64,000 nt of DNA from Dissophora ornata (lineage: Eukaryota > Mortierellomycota > Mortierellomycetes > Mortierellales > Mortierellaceae). Positions 22,670 through 64,000 of the stretch are shown piece by piece. How positions within the stretch are numbered: position 1 is the first letter of the stretch; each line of letters starts with the position of its first letter. The notes under the pieces are model-generated. The model made no database searches. It worked only from the letters and a program-made list of their open reading frames with translations, and was not told where the DNA came from. A program made the position numbers and the translations under genes. The stretch lies in NCBI GenBank assembly GCA_025201705.1, contig MU616589.1, positions 13,706 to 77,705 of the forward strand. Direction: 5' to 3'.

Positions 22670-25600
22670 TTAATGGCTCAAGATTTCCACCAACTTCTCA
22701 AGAGCTGTAGCCATTCTAGCTACGTTCGTGTCCAAGGACTCGAGGCGCTTCTCCAGCGTCGCCACGCTGCTTGAAAAAACAGCAGTGTCCAATGAGCTCG
22801 TCGCCTTCGAAACCTCTGAGATCGCAGCGGTGACAGAGGACGACGCCGCAGTGGCAATGGAAATGACAGGCTCGGCCGCTTGGACAGAGATTACGACTTT
22901 CTCATCATCCACATCGTCATCCACGACCACATCCAAAGGATCCTCGGGCTCGAGTTCTGGGAAGACAGCCTTTTCTTCAGCGTACTGAATGGGCCTCTCC
23001 TCGAGGTCTCCGTCGCCGTACATTGGGCATGCTGCATATCCTAATGCGGCTGTCGTCTTCTTGTCTCGCGACGATCCTTCAGTCACAAGCACCTTGAACC
23101 CGTAGACCCGACGGCAGCTCAAATCAACCAAGGCCCAGGCATCCCATTTGTGACTACCGTTATCGCGTCCGCAGCTTAGATCGACCTCGGTCACGCCCGT
23201 CTGCTCAGCCTTGTACACAACCTTGTTCAAGTCTTCGACCGAAAGTCTTGTGCCGTTAACGTTGACAACGCAAGTGGAGTCCGCATCGTCCTCTGTGACA
23301 CGAACGACACTTCTTGTCGAATCGAGAACATCGTCGACATGCAAGAACAGAATGTCCTTATCGTTCTTGGCAGCAATGCGACCCGAAGGATTATGGATAT
23401 ACTCCTGGACAAAGACACATTCTTCGCCTTCGATATCTTTGAACGTCAAACGAATGCGCATGGGGTGATGGAGTGCAACCATGGCCCAGTACCAACAGTT
23501 CTGCATAAGAGCGGCCTGGGCAGCGTTCCGACGAACGATAACTTCAAAAGGAATATCCAGAGACTGTGTTGGCGCGATCGAGGCTGGGAATTTTATATCA
23601 CCCAAATCCTGCGATTCGGCGGCTTTATACTCCTTGTCACCTACCAATCGATACTCCGCCTTGCAGGACGCCAATGTCACATACGTCTGGCTGTTTGGAG
23701 GTGCCTTGTTGAAGATACGAAGGGTACCCTGGAACTTGTCGGCGTTGTTGCGTACGAATTTGCCCTGAGTATTGGCCTGCATGTTGCCTTGAGGAATCAC
23801 TACCAGAGGCAGTCTGGTCCTAGCCTTGAACTCGCGCCGTTCACGCAAAGGAGTGGATCTCAGGATGTGGCCGACATGGCGATTCTCGGGAAATATGTAA
23901 GGTTCAGATGACTTGTAGATCTTGAACCTGGACTGTGAGAGCGTTTGGACCTCGCCTGTTAAAGATACAGTGTCGATGTCGATGGGAACGACCTTTACTG
24001 TGGCAACGTCGCTTGTAGCAACCTTGGAAGACAACTTCACACCATTGATTACACCGGCGTCGTTCAGAGTCCATTCTGCCATGGCATAGGCGCCCTCTTC
24101 GGGTGTCTTGAAGATCAAAGTCTTGCCCTTAACTTGTAGATTAGCGTTCGCCGTCTTGAGGTTTTCAGCATCAAACACTTGGAAATAGTAGGAGCTGTCA
24201 AAGTTGATGCGGCCAATATGGATAACCATCATGGGCTTGGTGATCCTTTCATGCCGAGTACGCCATCGCACCAATTTGCTGATGCTCGCCTTCTGGGACT
24301 GGTTAGTCAACATATCATTCTCGGAGACCACAGCCCACTCGTCAACAGTATCGCAGTACCCGAGAATGGCGTACGCATAGTCGTAAAAGGTGGTGTAAGG
24401 GTATTCGCAATGATGGACCGAACGATGGTTGGAGAACGTGCAGGGCGCTTTTTTGCCACAACAAGAGTATGTGCCGCTGACCTCCGAACTCTTGTGGAAT
24501 GAGCAGGCCTCGGGTCCGTTGGCAGATTCACGATACTCTTTGTCACACTGAACACAGGTGATACGCTGTTCGGCCTCTCGTTCGCGGACCTCTGTAGCCA
24601 AGGCTTTGATGGTTTCTGCAACTGTGTTGCTGGAGTTTTCCTTCAGCAATGTCTCGATACGAGACTGATTCTCGTCCAGGATATCCTCCATGCTTGATTG
24701 CATCTGATCCATGACCTGGTCGCTCATCGTCAACTGCAACTTTTTCGCAAACTCTTCCACTAGTTCTGGGCTGCTCTACACACGCCAGATTAGTCGAAAC
24801 AAAAGTGACATTAGAGTCATGAAGGCATTCTGCTTGTTTAAAATATAAAAGATAACCGGATCTTACATTGATTGCAGATTGTCCACCGTGCGCAGAAACA
24901 AAGATTCTGGCTTCCTCGTCCTGTGGATCCATAGGCACCGCTCTTGAGAGAACAGAGATGTCGCCAGTCTGCTGGATCTGCAAGCTAAGCATCAAATCCT
25001 GCGAGCATGTCGTGATCTTTTGGGCCATTTGAACAAAATTTTGACTGTTCGACATGTTGAGGCGTCTGGCAATGGCGCCTTGCTTGCGGTAGGCCTGGAT
25101 CAGTGAGGCGGCCTGTTTCAAAGTGTCGTTCATCTTTTCGATCACTACCTTGAGAGGATCGATGGCGTTGACCTTCTCCAGAACCGTGATGTTGCTGACC
25201 ATAAAGTTGATGCGCTCTAACAGATCCTTGCACTTTGCGTCTGCATCCCTAGCTTTTTGCTCGATATCGATGATGATCTACGGAGGACAAGTAGCAGGCG
25301 CCAGTCATCCGGGCGTTAATTTCAGCTTATGGTCATACGCACAGCTGGTGCCTGAATGGAAACAAAATGAGGCTGTACCTTTATGATGACAAAGGCAGGG
25401 GCGATGAATGGAACAGTCTTGCCAATATCCACTAGCTTGTCTGCTAGCTGGATGAGGTGATTCAGGGCAGGGTTCTTTTCAATATTCGCGATAACGTCCT
25501 GAGCTTGAGTAACTTCCATAACCTTGCTCGCCACGGCCTTTCCCTGGGTCAGAAAGGTAGAGCTTGTTGACGCTGCCGCCGTGGCAGCGATGGCCACATC

Positions 25601-26266
25601 GACACCCTTCTTGAGCGATTTCTCGTAAATAGATTCGTTCTCATCACCTTCCCGCAGGTCTTCAACCCTCTGTCGAATTTCCTGGATGCCTGAGCGGAAC
25701 GATTTGTCGATTTTTTTGATGTCTTCTTTATCAATGATACTGGTCCCTTCATCGACCGTGTTGATGTAGCTACTGCTGTCTTCCTGGGCCGGGATCGGCG
25801 GAAGCTTGCGGTTTGGTGGCTGTGTCGGGCTTGTGACAGAAGCGGTGGTGGTCATGCCGATGCTATTGTTGCTCTCGACACTTCCCCCGCTACTGGTACG
25901 AATAGGGTGCATGTTTTGAGCATGAACCATAGCGTGGAAGGCAGGACCCGTTGGCAATGGCTGGTGCTGCAGCTGGTGCATGTTTTGAAATTGGTTAGGC
26001 TGGTGCACGAAAGGTGGAGCGCCAGGCATGGGTCGGTTATTGAAACCAGGGAACTGTGGTAGCTGCTGATGCGGCTGTTGTCCTGGGAACCTGACGGGGG
26101 GGACAGGGTACCTGCCAGGGGGAGCCGGGTAATTGTTATTACCAAAAGGCGGGACCTGGCCAGGAACGGGATGGCCAGGAATAAGTGGCGGCCGGAACTG
26201 CTGGTTGTATTGGTAAGGCCGGTTCTGGCTCTGATTGAACCGTGGGTCATTATTGTTATTCGACAT
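22670..26266 (-). CDS. Large protein with MLKL N-terminal-like four-helix bundle and novel Cys/His C-terminal region
   Basis: Three exons, complement(join(22670..24775, 24867..25277, 25379..26266)), encode about 1,134 residues. Residues 1-150 are Asn/Pro/Gln-rich and disordered. About residues 190-425 are helical and resemble the MLKL N-terminal (4HB) domain of fungi and plants: GKTVPFIAPAFVIIKIIIDI, a CKDLLERINFM segment, AYRKQGAIARRL and DLMLSLQIQQTGDISVL. About residues 505-560 form a compact Cys/His cluster (C-x2-C, ...C-x2-H, CC, C-x5-H-x4-HHC), a likely zinc site. A long, possibly beta-rich region follows, then a C-terminal coiled-coil-like tail. 4HB domains of this kind in MLKL disrupt membranes or oligomerise; whether this one does is unknown. 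The start at 26266 is preferred over an upstream in-frame Met at 26296, which would add a hydrophobic stub. Confidence 0.75.
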
Positions 26267-60045: not shown

Positions 60046-61332
60046 TCAAAGCTGGAGATTGGTCTCGACCGATAACAACTCCTCCGCAACTCTGTCCATC
60101 TTAGGTCTAGCGTTGTAGTGTCCCTGGAGGCACTTTGCCATCAGCGCGGTGTATTCTGCACAGATCCTGTTTCCTTCTACGGCCACAAGATCTTCTCCTT
60201 CTGCGGGCTCTTTACCAGTCGAGATCTCGTACATGAGAACCCCAAACGAGTACACATCTGATTCTGGAGAGGTTCCAGAGACAGCTCTCTCAGCAGGCCA
60301 CCATCTCTTGAGGCTTTTTTCCACTTCTGGATTGTATCCGGTAAGATCTCCATCCCCCTTGCACATCTCGAAGCCGGTAAGCATGGGCTCCAACTTGTCG
60401 GACAGCAAGACGTTGGCAGCCCGGATATCCCTGTGCACAACGCATACCTCGCTTGTCTTTTCCGCCGCCGTAATGTCGTGCATGAAGAGGAGTGCATCAG
60501 CTACCATGCGTGCAATGGTGACTTTCTGGATAGTAGTCAGCTCTCCTCTGTACTCGTTTAGAGGACCGTTGGCGGGCATGGCGGTTACAATCGCTCGTTC
60601 TCTGTAGATGCCATATATCGGTACAATGTTATTACAGTCCGACAGACATTGCGCCAACAAGATACCCTTTCTAACGTGCTCAATGCCGACGGGTGAAATA
60701 TCTTTGTGTAGTTCTCGAATGTATGCGGCTTCCCCTTTGTAGGTGCCTTTGTATATTGTGCCATATGGGAATGTTCCGATTTCCTCCCTCTCATTGCCGA
60801 GATAGTCTGGGTTTACGATCGCCCGCTCTTCAAGCTTGGGAGGTGTCCTTTTGGAGAGGAGTGCATTCCCAGCGTCCTTCTGGTTATTGGATACACTGAT
60901 GTCGTATCTCATGGCATCGTCTTGATTGGACTCGTCGTCGTCCTCGTCGTCTTCACCAGCATTGGCATCATCTTGGTCGGCCTTGGCACTGGAGATTGTA
61001 TTTTTGATTCTGGCTATCCAATCATCTAGCTCATCCAAATGCATCTCACAGATCTCGGGAATCCCTCCACTCCTGATTATACGCATAAGAAATCCAGAGC
61101 CCGCGAACTTTTTCATGTCCTTGTCGCATCGCGTTAGAAGTCCCACGAGCGCTTTTAAAGCATGATTTGCTGGAGTACCCAGGTCGCCGTCTTCCAGGAG
61201 TCCATTTATCCATTGGCATTTCCTCGCCAGTCGCTCACATATGCGCTTGTTGAACCTGACACGCTCAGCGCTGGCAGTGATACAGGTAACCAAAGTAGAA
61301 ACGACAGATATTGCAGTCGATATATCGTTCAT
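60046..61332 (-). CDS. MLKL-like protein: four-helix bundle plus pseudokinase
   Basis: One exon, 428 residues. Residues 1-112 are helical and resemble the MLKL N-terminal 4HB domain: AERVRFNKRICERLARKCQW, ALKALVGLLTRCDKDMKKF, MHLDELDDWIARI. An acidic brace-like linker spans 113-165. A kinase fold covers about 170-425. Its glycine loop is GTFPYGTIYKG (186-196). The beta3 Lys is replaced by Arg206 (AAYIREL). The HRD loop is intact (VVHRDIRAANVLL, D302). DFG is replaced by GFE at 320-322 (LTGFEM), and APE reads PAE. Loss of the Mg-binding Asp and ATP Lys predicts a pseudokinase. Animal MLKL has the same layout and also GFE at this place; it permeabilises membranes after phosphorylation by RIPK3. 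A death-executioner role here is inference. The gene is divergent from the kinase at 62563. Confidence 0.8.
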   Translation of the reverse strand: MNDISTAISVVSTLVTCITASAERVRFNKRICERLARKCQWINGLLEDGDLGTPANHALKALVGLLTRCDKDMKKFAGSGFLMRIIRSGGIPEICEMHLDELDDWIARIKNTISSAKADQDDANAGEDDEDDDESNQDDAMRYDISVSNNQKDAGNALLSKRTPPKLEERAIVNPDYLGNEREEIGTFPYGTIYKGTYKGEAAYIRELHKDISPVGIEHVRKGILLAQCLSDCNNIVPIYGIYRERAIVTAMPANGPLNEYRGELTTIQKVTIARMVADALLFMHDITAAEKTSEVCVVHRDIRAANVLLSDKLEPMLTGFEMCKGDGDLTGYNPEVEKSLKRWWPAERAVSGTSPESDVYSFGVLMYEISTGKEPAEGEDLVAVEGNRICAEYTALMAKCLQGHYNARPKMDRVAEELLSVETNLQL

Positions 61333-62562
61333 GACTACTCTTCTCCTCTCAGTGCTAATTGCCGCAGAGCAGTTCGCGTTTGGTAATGTGTGTACGGTGG
61401 GCCAAGGGTTGAACTACGTGGATGTTGGGAAAACAAAAGAAGGTGAGCAAGCGTCGTGAGAATAATAGATCTCTGGCGGCCCATCCCTTGAGTCGATGAT
61501 TTTGCTATTCTCAACAACATACATGATGTGGAGGTTGTGTGAGCTGCGTGGTGAGCGCGAGTGTGAGTGTGTGCGCGGGCCGCTTATGGGTAGGTTGTAT
61601 TTGCGAGAAAGTCTTTGTGGGTGTGTGTTCGGAGAGAAAAGGAAGAGAAGAACGATTCCCAAAAACGAGCTGTCGAAATCGATGGCGATGCGAAATTTTT
61701 ATTGCAAAGGCGATAATCCGAGGCGGGCATGGGCTTTGTGTTCCTGTGCTTTCTCTGTCGCTGTCAATCTCAAGTTCCCCTGAAAGTGTGTGACGCGAGA
61801 CTCTCCATATGATGATGCCGCATCTCAAGCAGCCAGAGAACAGCGCCAAATCTTTCCTCTATAAGCAACGCTAACGATTGATATATTCATTTGAGCTGTC
61901 CGGGGAGCAGTACAAAGGCTCCTGCAATGTTTGACAAGCGCTAGAATCTCCAGCTCCAAGATCAATTATCGTGACTGAGGTTCCTGCCGTGGACGGTAGT
62001 CTTATTGTCGCTGAGACTCATCCAGTCAAGACTGTAGACACCAAACCGTTGTATCAACAGTCTCCTTCGTTGCGCTGTCGAGGTGTATGGCCCTCCGTCA
62101 GGGCGTGTCCCTATTTTTTTTTAGCAGCCGATAAAAATGGAGTCGCTTATTTGGGGAGGGCGTGGGCGTCCAAATGCTTCTGTTTTTGAAAGTTGCATTG
62201 GCCAATGGGCATGAAAGATCTACGCCGTCATATTTTGCACCTCCTCTCTTCTTTTCACCAATCCTCTTCCAAACACCCGCGCATCAAGTAAGTCACTGAA
62301 AATCGGCGAAAAATAGTGCAGCGCACGAACTGGAAATGCCCAAAACACGAACTGTGTGTCAGCATCTCCGCTAACTCGAGCGCTTCTCCAAATCGTGCTT
62401 TTCTCTTCAAGTTTTATAGGTGAGTGTGTTATATTCTGCTGTGCATTTCCTTTTCCATGCTATCCAGGGTTCCCACTCTGAATTTCACACACATACTTTT
62501 GAACAGCTTGTTTAATAAACGACCTCGTATCGCCTCTTAAAACGGTTAATCGGCTTCTTAGC
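61333..62562. promoter_or_regulatory. Bidirectional intergenic region between the pseudokinase and kinase genes
   Basis: This 1.23-kb stretch separates two head-to-head starts. A donor-like AAGTAAGTC at about 62287 and the acceptor-like CTTCTTAG at 62561 just before the kinase ATG suggest a 5'-UTR intron for the kinase. CT-rich sequence lies at 62245-62270. No promoter element can be named with confidence. Confidence 0.4.
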
Positions 62563-64000
62563 ATGTCCGAGGTTCCAACCAACGGCTTTCCCGATTCATG
62601 GGGTGGACTGGGTGCAATTCCATTCCCTACCGATGAGACGATGATTGGAAGAGGAGCGTTTGGCGAGGTATACCGGTGGAACAGGGACGGTACCGAAATG
62701 GCTGTGAAAAGGATCCGAGTAACCGACGGGTACACCCCAGACATTGAAAGGGAGACGAATATTGTGTCCCGGCTGGTGCATAAGCACATCATCCAATGCT
62801 ACGGCGTGGAACGTGATGCGAACTATGTGTACATCGTCACAGACTATGCTGAAGGCGGCGATCTCAGTAGCGCCTCGCCAAGATTGGACTGGGAGGACAG
62901 GAAGAGAATCGTGGTGGAGGTGGCTCTCGGATTGGCCTACCTGCATAGTCAAGGTATCATCCACAGAGACATTAAGGGAGCCAATATTTTGTTGACAAAG
63001 TACAACGAGGCCAAGCTGTGCGACTTTGGGCTTGCCAAGGTCATGGCCTCGGCCACCTGTGCCTCAACATACACACCAAAAGGAACTCGGAAATGGATGG
63101 CGCCGGAGCTGATATCAGCCAGACCCAAATACTCTTCCAAATCCGATGTCTTTGCGCTCGGCGTCGTGATGCGCGAATTAGAACATGGAGACACACCACT
63201 GGATTACACGGCGATCATGACAAGATGCATCGACGAGGATCCTGATAAGAGGCCAACTCTAGAGGACGTTGTGGACGCCTTTCAAGTAGTGCCTCAGGTC
63301 CGCGACACGGCTACTGAGGAAGATCAGGTCAAAGCAGAGCAGGACTCTTCGGCTGAAGATGAGTACAAGCAAGGACTAAGGTTCTACAGTGGAGACGGCG
63401 TCGATGTCAACCGCGCCGAGGCTGCCGAAATATTTAGGAGGGCTGCGAACATGGGACACGCGAGAGCCCAGTATGTCTTGGGCAAGATGTACCAAGATGG
63501 AGATAGTGTCCTGCGCGATTACACCAAGGCTGCAGAGTGCTTCCAGAAAGCCGCCGACCAAGGATATGCACCTGCACGGACGGGCCTTGGCCTCTCGTAT
63601 CTTGATGGTGGAAAGGGTGTGCCACAAGATTACAGCAAAGCTTTAGAACTATTCCAAGCAGCAGCAAGCCAAGGATATATCGACGCATACCCTAACTTGG
63701 GATGGATGTACTCGTATGGACTTGGTGTCCCGAAAAACAACGAAGAGGCCGTAAAGTGGTATCGCCAGGCCGCTGAACAAGGATGTGCAGTATCGCAGGC
63801 CAATATGGGGGAATTATATGCCAAAGGCGTGGGGGTGGAACAGAACGTTGAGGAAGCTGCAAGGTTCAGGTTAATGGCTGCTGCTCAGGGACATACAGAG
63901 TCACAACACGAGCTGGGCAATATGTATGCGCTTGGCCTGGGTGTTTCCCGGGATCGCGCTGCAGCCTTGGATTGGTGGCACAAAGCAGCTGAGGGAGGAA
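62563..64000 (+). CDS. TKL-type protein kinase with C-terminal Sel1 repeats (continues beyond window)
   Basis: Open from MSEVPTNGFP to the window edge, 479 codons and no stop. The kinase domain (about 25-242) has all catalytic elements: GRGAFGEVYRW, beta3 Lys49 (MAVKRI), Glu63, HRD at 134-136 (IIHRDIKGANILL), DFG at 154-156 and WMAPE at 178-182. It therefore looks active. The C-lobe ends CIDEDPDKRPTLEDVV. From about residue 266, six Sel1/TPR-like repeats follow at about 36-residue spacing (ARAQYVLGKMYQDGDSV..., IDAYPNLGWMYSYGLGV...), and more are likely outside. Sel1 repeats are protein-protein scaffolds. Divergent pairing with the MLKL-like pseudokinase suggests a kinase-substrate relation (inference). 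No transmembrane segment or RHIM-like motif is evident. Confidence 0.85.
   Translation, partial: MSEVPTNGFPDSWGGLGAIPFPTDETMIGRGAFGEVYRWNRDGTEMAVKRIRVTDGYTPDIERETNIVSRLVHKHIIQCYGVERDANYVYIVTDYAEGGDLSSASPRLDWEDRKRIVVEVALGLAYLHSQGIIHRDIKGANILLTKYNEAKLCDFGLAKVMASATCASTYTPKGTRKWMAPELISARPKYSSKSDVFALGVVMRELEHGDTPLDYTAIMTRCIDEDPDKRPTLEDVVDAFQVVPQVRDTATEEDQVKAEQDSSAEDEYKQGLRFYSGDGVDVNRAEAAEIFRRAANMGHARAQYVLGKMYQDGDSVLRDYTKAAECFQKAADQGYAPARTGLGLSYLDGGKGVPQDYSKALELFQAAASQGYIDAYPNLGWMYSYGLGVPKNNEEAVKWYRQAAEQGCAVSQANMGELYAKGVGVEQNVEEAARFRLMAAAQGHTESQHELGNMYALGLGVSRDRAAALDWWHKAAEGG

Follow-up and report, generated by a model that had tools for sequence, protein, structure and literature searches.

A Sel1-repeat kinase gene beside an MLKL-like pseudokinase gene in Dissophora ornata: a candidate kinase-gated executioner pair in Mortierellaceae

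The 64,000-nucleotide stretch of Dissophora ornata DNA analyzed here (the window; G000:C28:13706-77705 of a 31.4-Mb assembly) ends in two adjacent genes, one encoding a protein with an N-terminal four-helix bundle (4HB), brace-like helices and a pseudokinase domain (4HB-PK A), the other a kinase with Sel1 repeats (Kin1). Motif counts, profile matches and structure models provide good support for a likeness of the whole pseudokinase protein to MLKL. Comparison with relatives supports joint inheritance of an MLKL-like protein and a kinase in many members of the Mortierellaceae, the family to which D. ornata belongs. That the pair acts as a two-part executioner gated by its kinase is a proposal we hold to be slightly better than evenly balanced.

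The gene pair at the window locus

The sequence-only reading had placed an apparently active Sel1 kinase gene head-to-head with a 4HB-pseudokinase gene, and both genes are present in that arrangement:

60046..61332, minus strand: 4HB-PK A, the 4HB-brace-pseudokinase gene, 428 aa in one uninterrupted open frame
60991..61332, minus strand: predicted N-terminal four-helix bundle, residues 1-114, in which helix 1 is hydrophobic and an additional short helix separates helices 3 and 4
60823..60936, minus strand: brace-like helices, residues 133-158 and 165-170 (AlphaFold model)
60052..60789, minus strand: pseudokinase domain, residues 182-427 (Pfam PK_Tyr_Ser-Thr at 183-419, and motif counts)
60715..60717, minus strand: codon for Arg206, which replaces the VAIK lysine (counts in aligned rows)
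60367..60375, minus strand: GFE at the DFG position, residues 320-322 (row counts; aligns with GFE of mouse MLKL)
60340..60342, minus strand: codon for Thr331, candidate phospho-site in the activation loop (near-invariant Thr within a variable, low-confidence loop)
61333..62562, no strand: 1230-bp region separating the start codons of 4HB-PK A and Kin1 (computed distance)
62563..64000, plus strand: Kin1, Sel1-repeat kinase, 533 aa in full, extending beyond the window (C28:76268-77866; open frame and Pfam)
62635..63204, plus strand: core of the Kin1 kinase domain, with HRDIKGAN, DFG and APE intact and MAVK judged by eye (motifs and Pfam)
63352..64000, plus strand: Sel1 repeats of Kin1, extending beyond the window (Pfam)

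By its motifs Kin1 is apparently an active kinase. The full protein matches Pfam Pkinase (E 7.2e-51) and Sel1 (E 2.8e-61), with the Sel1 repeats lying C-terminal to the kinase domain. The module on this contig is larger than the window and reads, in order, 4HB-PK A (-), Kin1 (+), Kin2 (+) and 4HB-PK B (-). Kin2 is a second Sel1 kinase of 960 aa on the plus strand (L001 6492-9371), and 4HB-PK B is a second pseudokinase approximately 75% identical to 4HB-PK A.

Likeness of the pseudokinase protein to MLKL

The kinase-like part of 4HB-PK A matches Pfam PK_Tyr_Ser-Thr with an E value of 5.6e-21. In a Pfam scan of its family, MLKL_N was found in 21 of the 46 proteins at a threshold of E<=0.1, the best value being 4.6e-6, whereas each other non-kinase-like model matched one member; precomputed records of two homologues (P0011 and P0018) already carry the MLKL_N annotation. 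The MLKL_N bundle is thus present at the family level, and brace helices are predicted by AlphaFold between it and the kinase domain. The model of 4HB-PK A has a mean predicted local distance difference test score (pLDDT) of 86.4 and a predicted template modeling score of 0.88, and places helices at residues 2-24, 29-48, 56-77, 80-88 (short), 90-114, 133-158 and 165-170, followed by a kinase fold. When the whole model was compared with the PDB by Foldseek, full-length mouse MLKL (4btf) ranked first, with an E value of 4.7e-13 over 469 columns and a root-mean-square deviation of 16.6, a value that presumably reflects differently placed domains. Phmmer likewise aligned 4HB-PK A with mouse MLKL across residues 18-423 (E 2.6e-11); a plant kinase scored slightly higher, but through its kinase domain alone. 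A profile of the family covered the MLKL structures 4btf and 6lk5 over almost its full length.

The N-domain modeled alone (mean pLDDT 78.3) is predicted to be a helical bundle, as had been supposed from the sequence. Its best natural matches by VIA Z score are MLKL executioner domains (human 6zvo/6zz1), with Foldseek E values that are not significant. Natural fold matches comprised MLKL executioner domains, Arabidopsis NRG1.1, AtMLKL3, Rx-CC and Cbl, interspersed with designed bundles and IncA. Helix 1 is hydrophobic across the family (mean Kyte-Doolittle value 1.15 for residues 4-23, in 40 rows and with no control set) and is followed by a positively charged stretch (mean net charge +4.1 for residues 22-48, in 42 rows, again with no control set).

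Catalytic residues were counted in an alignment of 46 rows, comprising 43 homologue hits, the window protein, L002 and L010; P0002 (part of the window gene), P0046 (a fusion model) and P0047 (a sunflower kinase) were left out. The VAIK lysine is replaced by Arg in 45 of the 46 rows and by Gln in the remaining one, and the DFG Asp by Gly in all 44 rows with a letter at that position. GFE is complete in 42 of these 44 rows, the others having GLE and GFG, and two rows are gapped. The column of Thr331 holds 39 T, 2 S and 1 A among 42 rows with a letter, next to variable positions 327-330, in an activation loop (residues 326-333) modeled at pLDDT under 50. Thr331 is, from this pattern, a candidate activation-loop phosphorylation site.

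Linkage and matched clades of kinase and pseudokinase

The homologue search returned 46 proteins, of which 44 were counted after removal of the fusion P0046 and the sunflower kinase P0047. Partners were matched by eye against two kinase lists (53 and 37 hits) by means of locus tags and shared contigs. The pair proved to be conserved in relatives, as a Sel1 kinase partner was found for 21 of the 44 homologues, from 13 named taxa (three known just as Mortierella sp.). Fourteen partners bear consecutive tags (for example BGX28_008245/008244, EMPS_09848/09847 and EC957_000160/000159) and one lies two tags away (BGZ58_011175/011177). Four are on equal-sized contigs of the same organism (partners of P0006, P0014, P0020 and P0021), and two were found through the DNA of this genome (P0002 and P0025). 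One kinase is common to P0010 and P0014.

Orientation is another matter. The head-to-head arrangement, taken by the sequence-only reading, along with a presumed shared promoter, as a key feature, holds at the window locus and at C675, where the start codons are 946 bp apart, but was rejected as a conserved trait because other loci are co-directional: pseudokinase and kinase run the same way at C339, the pseudokinase tail runs into Kin1 in the Gamsiella gene model P0046, and at C226 and C12 short relics of a pseudokinase tail precede Kin1 on its own strand.

Phylogenetic trees indicate that the partners also correspond by clade. The pseudokinase tree was built from the 40 rows with 330 aa or more; P0019, P0022, P0023, P0042, P0044 and P0045 are shorter and were left out. 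It divides into clade I (20 of 40 rows, support 99/99) and clade II (14 rows, 100/99), P0022 being assigned to clade I solely by its 67% identity with the window protein. The kinase tree used regions of at least 180 aa around the HxD motifs of P0048-P0127, plus six Kin2 sequences; P0128-P0132 were not used, and C810_K2 is missing as no HxD motif was matched in it. One kinase clade (100/96) takes in nine kinases paired with clade I pseudokinases, with HRD in eight and HKD in P0069; a second (100/100) takes in nine kinases paired with clade II pseudokinases, all nine with HCD. The partners of two outlying pseudokinases, P0020 and P0043, cluster together (98/77). The kinase lists were seeded by one kinase per type and are biased toward these types, and both kinase clades include kinases with no pseudokinase seen. 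The gene models of two clade I partners, P0053 and P0059, continue into a Kin2-type kinase, which is why both occur in the second list as well; the Kin2-type segment of P0059 groups with Kin2, apart from the clade II partners. All 20 partner-kinase models contain HxD, DFG and APE, as do Kin2 P0049 and the fusion P0046; the VAIK lysine was not counted in the partner kinases.

Within the D. ornata genome, a family search found four intact pseudokinase copies, two in the window's module on C28 (A and B) and one each at C339 and C675, and each adjoins a Sel1 kinase gene. By a rough estimate of about ten loci of 20 kb, the kinase loci occupy less than 1% of the genome, so that the three pseudokinase loci would hardly all fall there by chance; those on C28 and C339 could be non-independent through block duplication. 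Tandem pairs of Kin1 and Kin2 occur at nine loci (C28, C12, C79, C183, C226, C237, C339, C778 and C810), with eight intact Kin1 genes in the genome. At C339 (L010, L014) Kin1 is broken, and 4HB-PK and Kin2 are open. Kin2 has HCD instead of HRD at seven of the nine loci and reaches about 1150 aa, mainly Sel1 repeats.

Derivation of the pseudokinase by recent local duplication was considered and is not supported, as its Kin1 matches are only 28-35% identical over the matched parts and a C19 kinase (30%) gives a similar E value; at such identity it is no fresh tandem copy. Concerted evolution of Sel1 units was also discounted. Twelve Kin2 units average 48% identity with a maximum of 69%, which is unremarkable, and Kin1 yielded no units with the pattern used.

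Additional copies and relatives were observed. P0017, a D. ornata protein with a BGZ58 tag, lies beside a Kin1-Kin2 gene model and is 91-92% identical to the C339 4HB-PK, a difference possibly due to strain polymorphism, to a paralogue absent from this assembly or to an assembly gap. The BGZ58-tagged Kin1 proteins P0054, P0056 and P0072 are 100% identical to copies in this genome, and P0053 has best matches here of 61% (Kin1 part) and 79% (Kin2 part). An isolated 4HB-PK fragment at C311:17272-17448 (-) covers residues 357-416 at 61% identity; among the frames listed, none of at least 130 aa with an HxD motif occurs within the 10 kb fetched around it. Approximately 35 kb from the pair, a large and apparently spliced gene (window 22670-26250, minus strand) holds a separate MLKL_N-like stretch at 24912-25247, which matches MLKL_N above the cut-off (E 4.8e-7); a second match lies at C45:82923-83231. 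The 696-aa C-terminal frame of the large gene matched no Pfam family at E<=0.01. A gene on C566 (L024 823-4469) encodes a weakly bundle-like N-terminus, a kinase domain and Sel1 repeats, with HRD changed to HKT and DFG to NFR. This gene is perhaps an all-in-one relative; as a fused version of the pair it was rejected, because the N-terminal resemblance is weak (hhalign probability 3.4; E 0.046).

A possible kinase-gated executioner

In the mechanism we propose, the Sel1 repeats or the kinase would sense a stimulus, and the kinase would phosphorylate the activation loop of the pseudokinase around Thr331. Pseudokinase and brace would then free the N-terminal bundle to act on membranes, permeabilizing them so as to kill the cell or seal off compartments, much as MLKL acts once phosphorylated by RIPK3. 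Action on Thr331 and membrane damage by the bundle are steps that we infer from MLKL, as treated in parts of PMC12881547 and PMC10211241. The kinase family has many copies, some of its loci being broken or reduced to relics, which makes a response to non-self or parasites a plausible context.

Several observations weigh against this proposal. 4HB-PK A itself matches MLKL_N with an E value of 0.0065 and 16.4 bits, under the 27-bit curated cut-off. In Foldseek MLKL leads ordinary kinases by a narrow margin, the runner-up being an Lck kinase (E 2.0e-12), and with VIA the best 50 rows for the whole model held kinase matches and no MLKL. Over the kinase domain, MLKL is outscored by many tyrosine kinases when the family profile is used. 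For the N-domain alone, the Foldseek E value is 0.55 and Z scores tie with those of designed bundles. The HRD Asp is retained in 44 of 44 rows (full HRD in 37), unlike in MLKL, so that residual activity of the pseudokinase is possible, and conservation of Thr331 could instead reflect a structural role. Several clade II partner models have short N-lobes, and three partner models (P0059, P0082 and P0107) begin after the VAIK region, which makes the activity of such kinases uncertain. Five of the nine Kin1/Kin2 loci (C778, C237, C79, C183 and C810) have no detected pseudokinase copy or relic. Lastly, for 23 of the 44 homologues, including nearly all Mortierella alpina copies, neither kinase list contained a partner; this is no proof of absence, the lists being confined to close relatives.

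Some of these features suit other explanations. The pseudokinase might regulate the Sel1 kinase allosterically or scaffold it, in the manner of STRAD with LKB1, with the bundle serving as membrane anchor or dimerizer and an ordinary signaling output in place of death. Linkage and matched clades also fit such a role, as do the retained HRD Asp and complete kinase fold, and helical bundles also act as adaptors, with Cbl bundles among the fold matches. The top whole-chain Foldseek match to MLKL, the same domain order, the GFE motif and the hydrophobic helix 1 speak against it, and we regard it as unlikely, if still a serious contender. A restraining or guard/decoy role of the adjacent kinase would keep the pseudokinase as executioner and place the trigger elsewhere (proteolysis, NLR or ligand). 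Eight intact Kin1 genes to four intact pseudokinases would fit a repertoire of sensors or guards, but the conserved loop Thr agrees with activation-loop phosphorylation and neither an NLR nor a protease is known as a partner here, though neighbors were not scanned for them; we think this arrangement improbable. The two genes might, finally, have no functional link, their adjacency arising from local kinase multiplication and block duplication. Kin1/Kin2 loci are plainly duplicated arrays, and block duplication can pass on the linkage of related copies. Linkage is nonetheless seen in both deep pseudokinase clades, across the named taxa and with different kinase partners, relics remain upstream of Kin1 at C226 and C12, and the pseudokinase is as divergent from Kin1 as described above; an absence of any link therefore appears very improbable.

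Kinase-to-MLKL signaling has been described for mammals, and fungal executioners are gated chiefly by NLRs and amyloid motifs, according to the relevant passages of PMC12881547, PMC10197012 and PMC10211241. A term search of the main text of PMC12881547 found no mention of Mortierell- or Sel1. Our literature search, whose coverage lay outside most subscription papers and all bioRxiv preprints, found no account of a kinase/4HB-pseudokinase pair and no work on regulated cell death in Mortierellaceae. More speculatively, and with less than even confidence, we suggest that Mortierellaceae may possess a locus-encoded necrosome without RHIM amyloid, in which multiplying and decaying repertoires of Sel1 sensor kinases converge on a few MLKL-like 4HB-pseudokinases and bring about membrane-lytic death at encounters with non-self or parasites. 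In that case kinase-gated MLKL logic would either predate animals or have arisen twice, with GFE as a common solution. The existence of such a conserved pair in an early-diverging family of fungi would allow direct tests of how kinase-gated necroptosis arose. The pair also puts forward specific Mortierellaceae genes as candidates for regulated cell death.

Animal MLKL (mouse 4btf) and the fungal protein have in common the order bundle-brace-pseudokinase and, in mouse, GFE at the DFG position, a shared motif that may be convergent. MLKL lacks the HRD Asp and the DFG Asp (as given in part of PMC10211241), whereas the fungal family has retained the HRD Asp but not the VAIK Lys; moreover, the proposed fungal partner kinase is encoded next door and bears Sel1 repeats. 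Likeness to RIPK3 is one of proposed role only, that of an active kinase upstream of a 4HB-pseudokinase. The C-terminal part of Kin1 consists of Sel1 repeats, and no RHIM model in Pfam matched the window part of Kin1 (E<=1) or the full protein (E<=1e-5), although short motifs can escape such scans; as RHIM was not found, Kin1 is not filed as RIPK3. The bundles of plant MLKL (AtMLKL3, 6ka4) and CC-R/RPW8 proteins (NRG1.1, 7l7v) resemble the fungal N-domain in fold, and we know of no Sel1 kinase linked to either. Fungal HeLo/HELL executioners (HET-S, HELLP) form two- or three-gene clusters with NLR partners, as set out in sections of PMC12881547. They share a 4HB-type killer domain with the present family, in which, by contrast, the C-terminus is a pseudokinase and the neighbor a kinase. 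MLKL-family (TCDB 1.A.105) homologues with Sel1 repeats are reported, in the pertinent part of PMC8778642, exclusively from Glomeromycotina. These proteins resemble the Mortierellaceae pair in MLKL-family annotation, Sel1 repeats and provenance from an early-diverging fungal lineage, whereas Mortierellaceae divide the 4HB-pseudokinase and the Sel1 kinase between two genes.

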